Made by a program: the position numbers and the translations under genes. 48,093 nucleotides of DNA from a virus. The notes beneath the pieces are model-generated. The model was not told the DNA's origin. It saw only the letters and a program-made list of their open reading frames with translations, and ran no database searches. Positions 3,251 through 21,811 of the stretch are shown piece by piece. Each line of letters starts with the position of its first letter. Positions within the stretch are counted from its first letter, which is position 1. The stretch is taken from the IMG/VR virus record IMGVR_UViG_3300042987_001328, positions 1-48,093 of that record, one strand, 5' to 3'.

Positions 3251-3533
3251 GTTCAAATACAACATTGGTGATCGCGTAGCTGAACGCCCCAAGCTACGTG
3301 GTGTCTTTGCACGCACTCAAGAGACACGTGATCGCATTGCGCAGCATCGTAACCAACGCTATGGCACAGTAGTTGGTTTTGATTCCAAGCGCAATGTAGA
3401 TGGTCGTACCATGCAGTTCTTACTTATTCAATGGGATCATTTGACATCACCAACAGCTCATGCTCAGATGCGTATCTGTCCTATTGATCAGTTACAAGAA
3501 CTGACGAATCAAATTGTTGTGCCTGGAGAATGA
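3234..3533 (+). CDS. SH3/KOW-like small protein
   Basis: A 99-aa protein starting MPTKAKFKYNIGDRVAERPK. The pattern of a GDRV strand, then YGTVVGF, then LLIQWDHL is that of a small SH3-like barrel, as in many short phage proteins that mention 'GxxVxxxxxxxGxVxxxxxxxxxVxWD'. The ATG lies inside the 3' end of the preceding gene and its stop overlaps thyX. Binding partner unknown. Confidence 0.65.
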   Translation: MPTKAKFKYNIGDRVAERPKLRGVFARTQETRDRIAQHRNQRYGTVVGFDSKRNVDGRTMQFLLIQWDHLTSPTAHAQMRICPIDQLQELTNQIVVPGE

Positions 3534-4189
3534 TCATGAATGTCAAGTTGATCTGGGTAACCCCCAACGCAGAAGAGCTGATTACTTATATGGCACGCGT
3601 CAGTGCCCCAAAGAATCAGGAGAATATGGAGACTGCTCCTAAGTTGTTGCGTTATTTAATTCAACACAAGCATTGGTCTCCCTATCAGATGGCTAACATG
3701 TGTGTTGAAATTAACACAACCCGTGCAATATCTGCACAGATTATTAGACATAGCTCATTTAGTTTTCAGGAGTTTAGTGCTCGCTATGCAGATGTCAGTG
3801 AACTAGGTTCTGCTGTCATCCCACACTTGCGTAGACAAGATCATAAGAACAGGCAAAATAGTATTGATGATCTAGATCCAGAGATGGTTGGTAGTTACTA
3901 CCGACGCATCAGTCAACTCTTTGAAGATGCTGAACATCTCTATCGTGAGATGATAAGCACTGGTGTTGCCAAAGAGTGCGCCAGGAACATTCTGCCGATA
4001 GCATCTCAGACTAGAATCTATATGCAAGGATCTTTGCGTTCATGGATCCATTACTTACAGCTACGTTGTGACAACGGAACACAAGCAGAACACCGACAAA
4101 TTGCAGAAGAAATCAAACGAATCTTCTGTCAACAATTCCCAATCATTGGAGAAGCTGCCTTCTCAGGAGAAGACAACACAACCATCTGA
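3530..4189 (+). CDS. thyX: Flavin-dependent thymidylate synthase ThyX
   Basis: A 219-aa protein with the ThyX signature at residues 73-86, RHSSFSFQEFSARY (consensus RHRxxSxNExSxRY; the third residue is Ser, as in other phage forms I recall). ThyX methylates dUMP to dTMP using methylenetetrahydrofolate, FAD and NADPH. The N-terminal MARVSAPKNQ and the HWSPYQMANMCVEI segment are also typical. Length fits the family. It overlaps the preceding gene as ATGA, so I use the ATG at 3530; a second in-frame ATG lies at 3536. Together with the dCTP deaminase at 41 kb it would provide dTMP for phage DNA synthesis. Confidence 0.95.
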   Translation: MIMNVKLIWVTPNAEELITYMARVSAPKNQENMETAPKLLRYLIQHKHWSPYQMANMCVEINTTRAISAQIIRHSSFSFQEFSARYADVSELGSAVIPHLRRQDHKNRQNSIDDLDPEMVGSYYRRISQLFEDAEHLYREMISTGVAKECARNILPIASQTRIYMQGSLRSWIHYLQLRCDNGTQAEHRQIAEEIKRIFCQQFPIIGEAAFSGEDNTTI

Positions 4190-4216: not shown

Positions 4217-4330
4217 CTAGGAGGGTGTGACCTCACGGTGATCAAGCCGCAAGGTCATTCGTTTACTAGCCAGGGGAAGCAGCAGAAACCCTGACTCCCT
4301 CGGGACTGACGCTGCTCTTCTGCGTCCCAC
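4217..4330 (+). ncRNA. Structured leader / pseudoknot RNA candidate
   Basis: The 206-nt gap between thyX and the Gp88 gene folds well on the + strand. Domain 1: CTAG (4217-4220) pairs CTAG (4266-4269) around GTGACC (4227-4232) with GGTCAT (4253-4258) and CGG (4236-4238) with CCG (4247-4249). Domain 2: CAGGG (4271-4275) pairs CCCTG (4289-4293), and the loop bases GAAG-C-AGCAG (4276-4285) pair CTGCTCTTC (4312-4320), which makes an H-type pseudoknot of 5 and 9 bp. An alternative hairpin GAGG/CCTC (4221-4224 with 4231-4234) excludes part of domain 1, so switching is possible. I do not recognise a known riboswitch class. Confidence 0.5.
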
Positions 4331-4346
4331 AACAGTCTACTTGACA

Positions 4347-4370
4347 CGTTCTAAGCATGACGTTAAACTG
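4347..4370 (+). promoter_or_regulatory. 24-bp repeated motif, copy 1
   Basis: CGTTCTAAGC followed by ATGACGTTAAACTG, 25 nt before the ATG at 4396. It is one of four near-identical copies (see 7413, 8602, 11905). In this copy a perfect TTGACA (4341-4346) stands 17-18 nt before TAAACT, so a sigma70 promoter with TAAACT as -10 is possible here; the other copies lack a -35 match, pointing to a phage-specific promoter or leader element. Confidence 0.7.
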
Positions 4371-4395
4371 CTCCACACCAATTCAGTACAGCACC

Positions 4396-5184
4396 ATGAA
4401 ACTTCTTAAGTTTTCTACTGGCAATGGCAAGCTCAAGAATCGTTTGATCTTCTCGTTGCCAGCGGGTTATGCATGCCCACATGCTGGTGTATGCAAGACC
4501 TTTGCAGATCGTGTCACAGGTAAGATCACTGACTTACCTCAGCACACTGGTACCACAGCAGATGAGTTCCGCTGCTTTGCTGCAATGGCAGAGACTAAGC
4601 CAAGCGTACGTGATGCACGTTGGCATAACTGGGATCTGCTGCGTAATACCATCCATCTCAATGGCAATCAGTCAATGCTGATGCGTGATCTGATTGACAT
4701 GTCGTTGTTGATGGAACCAGAGAAGGAACTTGTACGCATCCATGAGAGTGGTGACTTCTGGATTGAAACCTACATGCGTGCATGGGCAATGGTTGCAGCA
4801 CAGCGACCTAAGCAGAAGTTCTATGCCTATACCAAGTCTCTTGGCATGTGGTTGAACTTACGTGATCAGCTGCCATCTAACTTCTATCTCACTGCATCTT
4901 ACGGTGGTACGCTTGACTATCTCTTGCCAAAGTATCCAGATGTGTTCAAGCGTATTGCTTATGTGGTATACACAGAAGATGAAGCTAAAGAGCGTGGTCT
5001 AGAGATTGACCATGACGACAGCCATTGCTTTGGCAACAAGCCGTTTGCACTCCTTGTGCATGGCAGCCAACGCGCTGGATCAGACGCCATGAAAGCTTTG
5101 TCTCAACGTAAGAAAGACAAGGGATTCGTTGGGTACGGTAAAACATTCCAAAAAGAATCCGTACCTATTAACGTCTTTGCTTAG
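4396..5184 (+). CDS. Phage Gene-product-88-family protein
   Basis: A 262-aa protein with KFSTGNGKLKNRLIFSLPAG, then CPHAGVC (Cys27, Cys33) and RCFAAMAE (Cys60), the pattern of the phage 'Gene product 88' family, which has a conserved cysteine set that could bind metal. Biochemical role is unknown to me. I start at 4396 rather than 4357 because the 4357 ATG is part of the repeated 24-bp motif, which elsewhere lies wholly upstream of genes. The gene follows a structured leader and that motif, so it is probably controlled separately from thyX. Middle sequence has Trp-rich blocks (DARWHNWDLL, MRAWAMVAAQ) and a late CFGNKPF. Confidence 0.7.
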   Translation: MKLLKFSTGNGKLKNRLIFSLPAGYACPHAGVCKTFADRVTGKITDLPQHTGTTADEFRCFAAMAETKPSVRDARWHNWDLLRNTIHLNGNQSMLMRDLIDMSLLMEPEKELVRIHESGDFWIETYMRAWAMVAAQRPKQKFYAYTKSLGMWLNLRDQLPSNFYLTASYGGTLDYLLPKYPDVFKRIAYVVYTEDEAKERGLEIDHDDSHCFGNKPFALLVHGSQRAGSDAMKALSQRKKDKGFVGYGKTFQKESVPINVFA

Positions 5185-7412: not shown

Positions 7413-7436
7413 CGTCCCAGGTATGACGTTAAACTG
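7413..7436 (+). promoter_or_regulatory. 24-bp repeated motif, copy 2
   Basis: CGTCCCAGGT followed by ATGACGTTAAACTG, 24 nt before the ssb ATG. The motif's own ATG opens a 13-codon frame whose TGA overlaps the ssb ATG, so a leader-peptide role is a second possibility. The leader after the motif is C/A/T-rich and lacks a purine-rich ribosome-binding site. Confidence 0.75.
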
Positions 7437-7460
7437 CCTTAACACCTTGCATCTGTACTC

Positions 7461-19926: not shown

Positions 19927-19998
19927 AGCTGGATATCCGATTTGAACGGATGGCCTGAGATTTACAAAATCCCTGCTCTACCACTGAGCTAATCCAGC
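19927..19998 (-). tRNA. tRNA-Thr(UGU)
   Basis: Reading the complement: acceptor GCTGGAT/ATCCAGC (7 bp), D-stem GCTC/GAGC with loop AGTGGTA, anticodon stem GGGAT/ATCTC (one G-U), loop TTTGTAA giving anticodon UGU, T-arm ATCCG TTCAAAT CGGAT. All four stems pair. CCA is not encoded. A threonine tRNA reading ACA/ACG would help translate phage codons. Confidence 0.9.
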
Positions 19999-20001
19999 AC
20001 A

Positions 20002-20080
20002 TCGGAATGGTAGGATTTGAACCTACGGCGAATTCTCTGCGTTACAAAGGCAGTGCTTCAATTTAAAGCTTGTAGGGCAG
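20002..20080 (-). pseudogene. Damaged tRNA-like sequence (UGU-type loop)
   Basis: The complement has a good T-arm (GTAGG TTCAAAT CCTAC), a D-arm-like GCTT/AAGC and an anticodon loop TTTGTAA. The acceptor 3' strand CATTCCG has no partner: the expected CGGAATG is missing 5' of the D-arm. The anticodon stem has a C-C mismatch at the top pair. Probably a decayed tRNA, or a tRNA-like structure whose 5' part was replaced. Confidence 0.45.
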
Positions 20081-20082
20081 TA

Positions 20083-20158
20083 TCGGAACGCTCAGATTTG
20101 AACTGAGATTATTCCGTCTCCCAAAGGCGGTGCCATGACCAAGTTAGGCGACGTTCCG
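20083..20158 (-). tRNA. tRNA-Pro(UGG)
   Basis: Complement: acceptor CGGAACG/CGTTCCG with discriminator A, D-stem GCC/GGC, anticodon loop TTTGGGA (anticodon UGG, G37 as in proline tRNAs), T-arm CTCAG TTCAAAT CTGAG. The anticodon stem CCGCC/GACGG has one C-A mismatch at the fourth pair, which may reduce function or be tolerated. 76 nt. No encoded CCA. Confidence 0.8.
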
Positions 20159-20159
20159 A

Positions 20160-20276
20160 AACTGCTTACGTACTCTAACACTTTTTCTTCAATTAGACTA
20201 CGATGTCTTGAGTGCCAAATGCGGTGGTGATTTGGGCATAAAGGTATTAAGTTTAACGGGCTGTACTTAAATAGCC
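20160..20276 (-). pseudogene. C-terminal HNH endonuclease remnant
   Basis: The complement encodes NLIPLCPNHHRIWHSRHRSL and IEEKVLEYVSSF, which is the classic C-terminal half of a small HNH nuclease (NLIPLC..HH...H). The N-terminal zinc/HNH half is absent: upstream is a tRNA-like sequence and the same frame only continues by chance. It lies between tRNA-Pro and a degenerate tRNA, so it looks like a relic of a homing nuclease that invaded the tRNA cluster. Confidence 0.55.
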
Positions 20277-20280
20277 TACA

Positions 20281-20382
20281 GCACCCAGGGGGGATTTGAA
20301 CCCCCATCGCCATATCCACTGAAAGCATTGCGTCCAATACCCAGGCTGGTGGCCGCACTATCCAATTGTTTCGGACTGGGTG
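20281..20382 (-). pseudogene. Degenerate tRNA-like sequence
   Basis: Complement has a strong T-arm (GGGGG TTCAAAT CCCCC) followed by CTGGGTG, which pairs perfectly with CACCCAG 94 nt upstream. The anticodon arm cannot be built with five pairs, and the span of 102 nt exceeds normal tRNAs. A shorter 71-nt reading (5' end at about 20351) has only partial stems. The 5' part overlaps the end of the 55-aa gene. I regard it as a decayed or unusual tRNA-like element. Confidence 0.4.
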
Positions 20383-20525
20383 GATCTGTACGGTTCCGTA
20401 AGTTCACAGTTCTCGTCAATTATGCCAGCATCTTGCAAGAACTTCTTACATGCCTCAGGATCTTTAAGCATTTTATCCAACCATGGTTGGAGTTTTTCGT
20501 GAGTTAATCTTTCTATCTTGTACAT
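20358..20525 (-). CDS. Small unknown protein, 55 aa
   Basis: MYKIERLTHEKLQPWLDKML, followed by KDPEACKKFLQDAGIIDENC and a Glu/Thr tail. It is short but has a convincing amphipathic helical pattern and good codon flow. It lies in the - strand run between the GC-rich RNA block and the tRNAs, and its 3' end overlaps the tRNA-like element. Role unknown; by its sequence it may be a small regulator or adaptor. Confidence 0.55.
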   Translation of the reverse strand: MYKIERLTHEKLQPWLDKMLKDPEACKKFLQDAGIIDENCELTEPYRSTQSETIG

Positions 20526-20602
20526 AATTATGGGCGACAGTATCCACCTACGATCACCTTAGCAGTGCGTTTACGTTGTGGCTTAGGGGACTGTTCGTTT
20601 AA

Positions 20603-21274
20603 TACAACGTTCCTTGTTGTACCCAAATAGTTGCCTGGGGAACCACCCCAGGACTTGCGCCTTATCTGCTGCAGCAGAGTTTGGCTGGTGTGAGTCCATC
20701 TCTCACGTGGTCTGGTTGTCAATCCCCCTACAGACATCGGGAACCCTCCAAGCGGGAGGATAACGCTGTTCCAGATTCATGGGGAACATTGCCACGGCCA
20801 CCAACTTTGCTGGTTAAGGGTGGTGGTGCGCTCCACCCAAGGGAATCATACACCAGATTGAGGGGTCGTGCCGGAATCAAACCGACTTTCTGTGTAGCTT
20901 GTCGCCCTGTCCTTATCAATGGACTACCGACCCAGTGACCCCCAGGTTTGAGCATTGTTAAGAGGCTTAGGGGGTGTTAGATCATTTTACACACTCTGGC
21001 CGATCAGACCCCAGGGTTGCGGATCCGTCGCGCTTGCCGAATCGGTCCCCGGCGCACCAGTGGATCAAACTGGCAGGAGAGGCCACCCCCTGGCCTGGAA
21101 ACCCAGGACTTCGTACGCAACCAGGAAAGGCACCCCGCACCAATGACGGACCTCAGAACTGGCCGCACCCTACCGACAGAGCAGTAGAGGTGGTTGATGG
21201 ATCAAGTGTACCGCCTTCTAGGCTATGTGCCTAACGCGCACAGGGACCTGACCGCTATCGTTTAGAAGTATAGC
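20603..21274 (-). ncRNA. Large GC-rich structured RNA candidate
   Basis: No convincing protein gene exists between 20526 and 21277, and base composition is clearly GC-richer than the flanks. It tiles with hairpins: 20603-20621 (6 bp), 20634-20652 (CCTGGGG/CCCCAGG), 20665-20678, 20690-20706 (7-nt loop), 20745-20759, 20768-20787, 20818-20838 (6 bp), 20862-20933 (tRNA-like fold, see findings), 20938-20975 (ACCCCC/GGGGGT), 21057-21073 (7-nt loop), 21081-21095, 21170-21187 (6 bp), 21226-21242 (7-nt loop), 21254-21274. About half of the 5-bp hairpins could arise by chance, but the longer ones and the tiling are notable. Minus strand is preferred from its neighbours. Size, phage setting and tRNA neighbours recall GOLLD/ROOL-type ornate RNAs; identity unproven. 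Confidence 0.55.
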
Positions 21275-21277
21275 TGA

Positions 21278-21811
21278 TCAAATGTTTTCTAGTACCAAGC
21301 GTTTGCCACGGAACTTGGCACGGGCTGTTTTGTTTTTGGTATCAACAGCAGTGACAACAGCAATCTGAGGTTGGCTACCATTAGTGTAAAGAAGAAAATC
21401 ACCTTTCTTTACGGCATCAGGTTGACAGACATAGTGTGTGTCTTTGCCATTAAGGCTGGCGGAAAAAGTGTAAGGCAATACTTCTTCCACATCTTTGGGG
21501 CTTAAAACATGGATTTCTCCAGTGCCTTTTTCTTCTATAAGGTAATTATTGCTGGAGTTGGTGCCAATGTGGTTGCCATATGCAACACTGCCGTCTTCTT
21601 TTTTAAAAGAGTAAAGAGTTTTAGTTTCAGCCATGGGTTCTTCAGGTGATTCGTCGTAGATTACAAGGTCATAATCATAAGCATACGTTTTGTTTTTGTT
21701 GTGAAGAAATTCGCAATACCATTTGTCGCCCCATTCTTTACGAAGGATGCGCATAGGTTTGCTGCCATATCTTTTCTTAACAATGTCTCCAACGTTAAAG
21801 GTTTTTGCCAT
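21278..21811 (-). CDS. SH3-like domain protein, 177 aa
   Basis: N-terminal MAKTFNVGDIVKKRYGSKPM, then RILRKEWGDKWYCEFLHN, is a GDxV...G..M.V...W..C.. pattern of small SH3-like (DUF2158/YodC-type) proteins. The C-terminal part from about residue 95 also has barrel-like strands (DAVKKGDFLLYTNGSQPQIA, VVTAVDTKNKTARAKF). No catalytic motif. It ends right at the 5' edge of the GC-rich RNA block. Role unknown. Confidence 0.65.
   Translation of the reverse strand: MAKTFNVGDIVKKRYGSKPMRILRKEWGDKWYCEFLHNKNKTYAYDYDLVIYDESPEEPMAETKTLYSFKKEDGSVAYGNHIGTNSSNNYLIEEKGTGEIHVLSPKDVEEVLPYTFSASLNGKDTHYVCQPDAVKKGDFLLYTNGSQPQIAVVTAVDTKNKTARAKFRGKRLVLENI

Follow-up and report, generated by a model that had tools for sequence, protein, structure and literature searches.

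What is encoded between the thyX gene and the gp88 homologue of this virus, and on which strand? The window, meaning the whole stretch of DNA analyzed (48,093 nucleotides, IMG/VR record IMGVR_UViG_3300042987_001328), carries between these two plus-strand genes an element that a sequence-only reading took for a leader of gp88 resembling a riboswitch or a stable phage sRNA. We place the element on the minus strand. With a probability of about 0.6, it would be an independently transcribed, highly structured and trans-acting sRNA gene of an S-EIV1-like freshwater cyanophage, opposite thyX and gp88. The surrounding features are the following.

3530–4189, plus strand: thyX, FAD-dependent thymidylate synthase (PF02511, E = 5e-46), neighbor on the strand opposite to the RNA
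4341–4369, plus strand: promoter-like sequence of gp88, TTGACA-17-TAAACT, past the RNA element
4396–5184, plus strand: gp88 homologue (PF17338, E = 4.5e-41), probable start ATG 4396

Alignments of gp88 relatives begin at ATG 4396. The gene order thyX, gp88, DNA polymerase A is common to the window and to the freshwater Synechococcus cyanophage S-EIV1, to which the window is therefore most likely related. A motif, TAAGCATGACGTTAAACTGC, is found on the plus strand upstream of gp88 (4352–4371) and again upstream of an SSB gene (7418–7437); it is present in many related contigs and is probably a phage promoter class. Elsewhere in the window, the minus strand of the region 19927–20974 harbors an orphan abiF RNA (RF03085, 55.3 bits, 20938–20974) close to tRNA-Pro and tRNA-Thr; an HNH-like open segment lies in between. 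The region 20150–21300 showed no intact frame for an AbiF protein.

Fold and strand of the RNA

Read on the minus strand, the element folds as a P4 hairpin followed by a P1 stem that encloses the P3 and P2 hairpins (P4 – P1[P3, P2]P1′), and a 6-bp kissing helix joins the loops of P3 and P4. It corresponds to the block conserved in 32 distinct phage homologues, and our covariance model, R1, scores it at 127.5 bits. Its parts, from 5′ to 3′, are listed below.

4221–4328, minus strand: structured RNA of about 108 nt, 5′ end near 4328, last conserved base near 4221
4324–4328, minus strand: P4 5′ strand GGGAC, partner 4302–4306; double-sided changes in every pair
4307–4323, minus strand: loop L4 GCAGAAGAGCAGCGUCA, kissing strand AGCAGC at 4311–4316; family consensus GAAGNAGAACNNCGUCA
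4302–4306, minus strand: P4 3′ strand GUCCC; covariation
4297–4301, minus strand: P1 5′ strand GAGGG, partner 4221–4225; GC/AU/UA swaps
4289–4296, minus strand: P3 5′ strand AGUCAGGG, partner 4268–4275; 8/8 pairs change on both sides
4276–4288, minus strand: loop L3 UUUCUGCUGCUUC, kissing strand GCUGCU at 4278–4283; covariation and free-position test
4268–4275, minus strand: P3 3′ strand CCCUGGCU; covariation
4258–4267, minus strand: joining segment J3/2 AGUAAACGAA; AA and GA columns invariant in alignment A3
4247–4257, minus strand: P2 5′ strand UGACCUUGCGG; 11 pairs including a tandem U.G/G.U
4228–4238, minus strand: P2 3′ strand CCGUGAGGUCA; covariation and wobble count
4221–4225, minus strand: P1 3′ strand CCCUC, last conserved element; covariation

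Homologue alignments of 20 and then 32 distinct sequences both showed covariation in six helices. Among the 32 distinct homologues, standard pairs make up 98.7% of the pair cells against 81.2% in shuffles, and 28 of the 35 pairs show double-sided changes. The covariation score reached 0.573 compared to 0.212 in shuffles, and none of 500 shuffles scored as high. Sliding the partners by 1–3 columns lowered pairing to 36–51%. When 65 matches (61 distinct) were aligned, double-sided changes appeared in each of the 29 nested pairs; this alignment was fitted to the model and is biased towards it, while the first ones were not so fitted. The kissing pairs are 100% kept in alignment A3. They were also assessed free of model bias, with a search pattern leaving two positions per side unconstrained: the free positions are complementary in 86/86 distinct viral matches (76 entirely Watson–Crick, 10 with one G.U). 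The folding energy of the single sequence is unremarkable (z = −1.5, plus strand). Judged by these alignments, the pairings are real and above chance.

Preservation of the pairings among homologues had been set beforehand as the test of the proposed pseudoknot, which withstood it. The CAGGG/CCCTG stem of the sequence-only reading (plus strand, 4271–4275 with 4289–4293) is present and covaries. Its loop pairs with a downstream segment as proposed, and this pairing covaries as well, but conservation does not extend to the further pairs of the proposed bulged 9-bp helix; it covers the 6-bp helix of 4278–4283 with 4311–4316, which joins two hairpin loops. The two mutually exclusive stems proposed upstream are really one continuous 11-bp hairpin, P2 (4247–4257/4228–4238), on the minus strand, and no conserved alternative pairing to P2 was seen among homologues. 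Two further covarying helices, P1 (4297–4301/4221–4225) and P4 (4324–4328/4302–4306), had not been noticed.

The non-Watson–Crick cells indicate the strand. On the plus strand they are mainly A.C, which become G.U when read on the minus strand, where we counted 93 G.U versus 10 A.C cells. Without the two nearly invariant wobble columns of P2, the minus strand still shows 30 G.U versus 10 A.C. The tandem U.G/G.U wobble of P2 is kept in most of the wider family. According to these counts, the functional strand is the minus strand.

Promoter and genomic settings

Immediately upstream of the RNA we found the following element.

4334–4339, minus strand: −10 box TAGACT (TANNNT), 5 bases before the first G of P4

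Of 41 mutually dissimilar upstream regions, 35 have TANNNT at this fixed distance ahead of P4, compared to a mean of 2.7 for other windows of equal width; in these 35 regions, the RNA has a predicted promoter of its own, with the start at the 5′ end of the structure. A −35 element was not found in a search of the upstream regions. Promoters with only a −10 element are common in cyanobacteria. No gene adjoins the RNA on its own strand in the window, and no terminator was seen there after P1′, so that the 3′ end is uncertain. Taken together, the covariation, the minus-strand G.U pairs and the fixed −10 box argue for an independently transcribed sRNA gene rather than a gp88 leader or riboswitch. 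A phage sRNA of about 115 nt, one of the possibilities first raised, agrees with the −10 box and with the absence of an adjoining same-strand gene. The promoter motif ascribed to a gp88 leader lies past the element, which is on the opposite strand; on the plus strand, 4341–4369 comes after the element, so a gp88 transcript that starts there cannot contain it.

DNA patterns for both loops yielded, in successive searches, 23, 41, at least 120 (not all real) and 117 stretches. The two loops stand in the same order in at least 117 viral stretches, beside unrelated genes. Among 80 viral contigs with a gene for a gp88 relative, about 25 have a homologue of the element. R1 recovered members with unrelated flanks and matched 18 of the 39 genomes or records tested, with one RNA copy in each virus record matched; roughly half of the gp88 carriers tested with R1 gave no RNA. 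The varied neighbors, the single copies and the absence from about half of the gp88 carriers point to an accessory phage gene independent of its neighbors. The S-EIV1 genome lacks the RNA in the R1 search; a BLAST match to S-EIV1 covers only the promoter and start of gp88 and was rejected as an RNA homologue. Neither single members nor a concatenation of 17 members gave a convincing RNA homologue when compared by BLAST with named phages. A window-type pattern run over 84,980 genomes gave two matches, one due to chance and one real, on a Bacteroidetes MAG contig that is probably viral.

The neighborhoods are diverse. In some relatives, LAGLIDADG-type ORFs come before the RNA and virion genes after it (first ORF PF03161, a downstream ORF PF23140); elsewhere it adjoins tRNA-Leu (L103, L134), or has in its vicinity a transaldolase (cyanophage talC) together with an hli-like ORF (L182) or, in L148, an integrase-like gene. 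In L138, L207, L213, L214, and L223, the LAGLIDADG-type ORFs are directly upstream of the RNA, and up to four group I introns stand close together on the strand opposite to these ORFs; those of L138 appear to interrupt structural genes. The introns near some members led us to consider a group I intron origin, which we rejected: these introns lie within structural genes on the opposite strand and have no loops in common with the RNA. A decayed or rearranged copy is seen in L065 (2840–2936), where P4 and the 3′ half are kept while P2 and the kissing loop are altered.

Could the RNA instead act in cis, as a leader or riboswitch controlling the next gene on its own strand? Some loci would suit such a role: a same-strand ORF starts 30–60 nt past the RNA in L163, L137, and L142, and a reduced form of the RNA, described below, ends right at a start codon in L135, L139, L149, L172, and L202. 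In L176 and L222, a strong terminator-like hairpin (GCCCCACA...UGUGCGGGGCUUUUUU) lies just 3′ of the RNA; since it shares bases with the 3′ strand of the RNA, formation of one may preclude the other. However, both neighbors are on the other strand in the window, where thyX and gp88 leave the RNA without a same-strand gene to lead, and in many relatives; the next gene is opposite in the window, L108, L112, L103, L078, L049, L045, and L148. The RNAs of L108 and L163 are closely similar, yet their downstream genes differ, and transcription from the −10 box would begin with the RNA. The riboswitch in a gp88 leader proposed at first is further contradicted by extra DNA between RNA and gp88 in L006, L045, L049, and L056 and by the relatives that lie beside unrelated genes. 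We therefore regard cis control as unlikely for the family, although the RNA could have a leader role too in L163 and L137, where it is co-directional with the next gene.

Relation to CyVA-1 and other RNAs

In agreement with the sequence-only reading, which recognized no known class, the RNA of the window matched no Rfam family, either at the gathering score or at E ≤ 10, and the RNA of 16 other loci was unmatched at the gathering score. In these searches, which also took in divergent members, weak matches to RsaE and mir-3689 were taken as chance. The literature searched contained nothing on this phage RNA.

Below threshold, a marine member (L113) matched CyVA-1 (RF02965) on the minus strand with 23.5 bits, the best score among window-type relatives, against a gathering threshold of 41.4 bits. 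The window itself is not a CyVA-1, as it gave no match at E ≤ 10 or in a direct search. Of the open papers searched, a single one mentions CyVA-1, a bacterial RNA, among the low-abundance sRNAs in halite cyanobacteria (PMC7002113). Like the window RNA, CyVA-1 is small and free-standing, and its consensus loops, GUUUUaCCGUUu and GAAGGAGAaCGACGUCA, are able to kiss and match L3 and L4 of the window and of the family consensus. The arrangements differ: in CyVA-1 (77 nt, no P2), P3 precedes P4 and both lie inside one outer stem, whereas in the window RNA P4 comes first, outside P1, and P1 encloses P3 and P2. The Rfam annotation of CyVA-1 includes no kissing helix, and our comparison suggests that the model omits one. 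On a viral contig (L238, 3780–3859) we found a true CyVA-1 (52.4 bits) with P3 before P4 within one outer stem; its loops, UUUUUGCCGUUUCC and GAAGCAGAACGGCGUCAGG, are the same two loops, complementary in the middle, so that kissing is possible. L4 is identical at 15 of 17 bases between the CyVA-1 consensus and common phage members. From this loop identity, common descent of the phage RNA and CyVA-1 appears likely, the link being drawn from the pair of loops as seen in a single viral contig and in the Rfam consensus. No CyVA-1 was found in 198 genomes of the phylum of the Bacteroidetes MAG.

A third scaffold is formed by L135 and 10 further distinct sequences. It keeps the P4–P3 order with the outer strands upstream of P4, giving a reduced form, P0[P1[P4],P3], which ends at or near a start codon. 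It is wedged between a stop and the next start codon in L135, L139, L149, L152, L172, L183, L186, L190, L202, and L245, and adjoins small conserved ORFs, e.g., MTREKLTEIVREVLAE. Given the different arrangements of CyVA-1, the reduced form and the phage sRNA, the core appears in three scaffolds.

In cobalamin-type riboswitches, a hairpin outside the closing stem kisses a loop inside it. The window RNA shares this layout but has its hairpin on the 5′ side, another consensus, no Rfam match and no same-strand gene to lead. GOLLD and other large phage-associated RNAs are likewise structured non-coding RNAs of lake phages, some with tRNAs nearby (PMC12286853), but GOLLD is hundreds of nucleotides long versus about 108 for the window RNA, and the window gave no GOLLD match.

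Proposed role of the RNA

In the mechanism we propose, transcription from the −10-only promoter TAGACT would start at P4. The sequence comparisons show the RNA to fold as P4 – P1[P3,P2]P1′, locked by the 6-bp kissing helix between L4 (GAAGNAGAACNNCGUCA) and L3 (UUUUUGNNGUUUCC), with the conserved joining segment and tandem G.U wobble of P2 as further parts of the structure. Around this helix, the conserved bases left unpaired may make up a compact core to which a conserved host protein (or a small molecule or RNA) binds during infection. The RNA would act in trans, perhaps as a mimic or competitor of host CyVA-1-type RNAs with the same two loops, and independently of its neighbors, which differ between phages. 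Because the unpaired bases near the kissing helix are the same despite different neighbors, a protein or ligand site fits better than base pairing with variable targets.

The same bases raise another possibility, that the kissing core is a ribozyme catalyzing cleavage or another reaction, with swapped topologies as in hammerheads. Invariant unpaired bases in L3, L4, and J3/2 and the recurrence of the core in three topologies would agree with this, and non-circular permutation of one RNA core is known in hammerhead ribozymes (PMC10085705). However, the window RNA has no hammerhead core. The Rfam ribozyme models gave no match, group I introns being found only elsewhere in neighboring loci, and no 5′ processing is needed, as the 5′ end is already fixed at P4 by the promoter. 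We regard catalysis as slightly less probable still than cis control.

The RNA might also act on thyX or gp88 as an antisense RNA or by transcriptional interference: its transcription would run towards the 3′ end of thyX, it overlaps the C-terminal frame of thyX in L024-type loci, and its −10 box abuts the −35 box of gp88. The elaborate fold is nevertheless kept where neither gene adjoins, and about half of the tested gp88-bearing contigs have no RNA, which makes this role improbable. Least credible of all is a plus-strand RNA of the thyX–gp88 intergenic region, the strand first proposed: most pairs are Watson–Crick and so possible on either strand, but without the P2 wobble columns A.C mismatches outnumber G.U pairs there by 29 to 9, P2 is broken, and both the −10 box and the match to the Rfam relative, CyVA-1, are on the minus side.

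The trans-acting sRNA favored here is a member of a large aquatic-phage family, absent from Rfam and from the literature searched. What began as a loose observation is now a defined RNA family in which covariation proves a tertiary contact. The family spans well over a hundred aquatic viral contigs, from apparent cyanophages and others, unmatched in Rfam at curated thresholds. It is possible, though less likely than not, that a single kissing core has been set in at least three non-circularly permuted scaffolds, that aquatic phages widely carry it as a gene of their own to engage the target of the cellular CyVA-1, and that one undescribed biochemical function underlies them all. The three scaffolds also provide a candidate example, outside ribozymes, of an RNA permuted in nature. 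The orphan CyVA-1 RNA gains a phage counterpart, and its function may thus be testable through the binding partner of the phage RNA.
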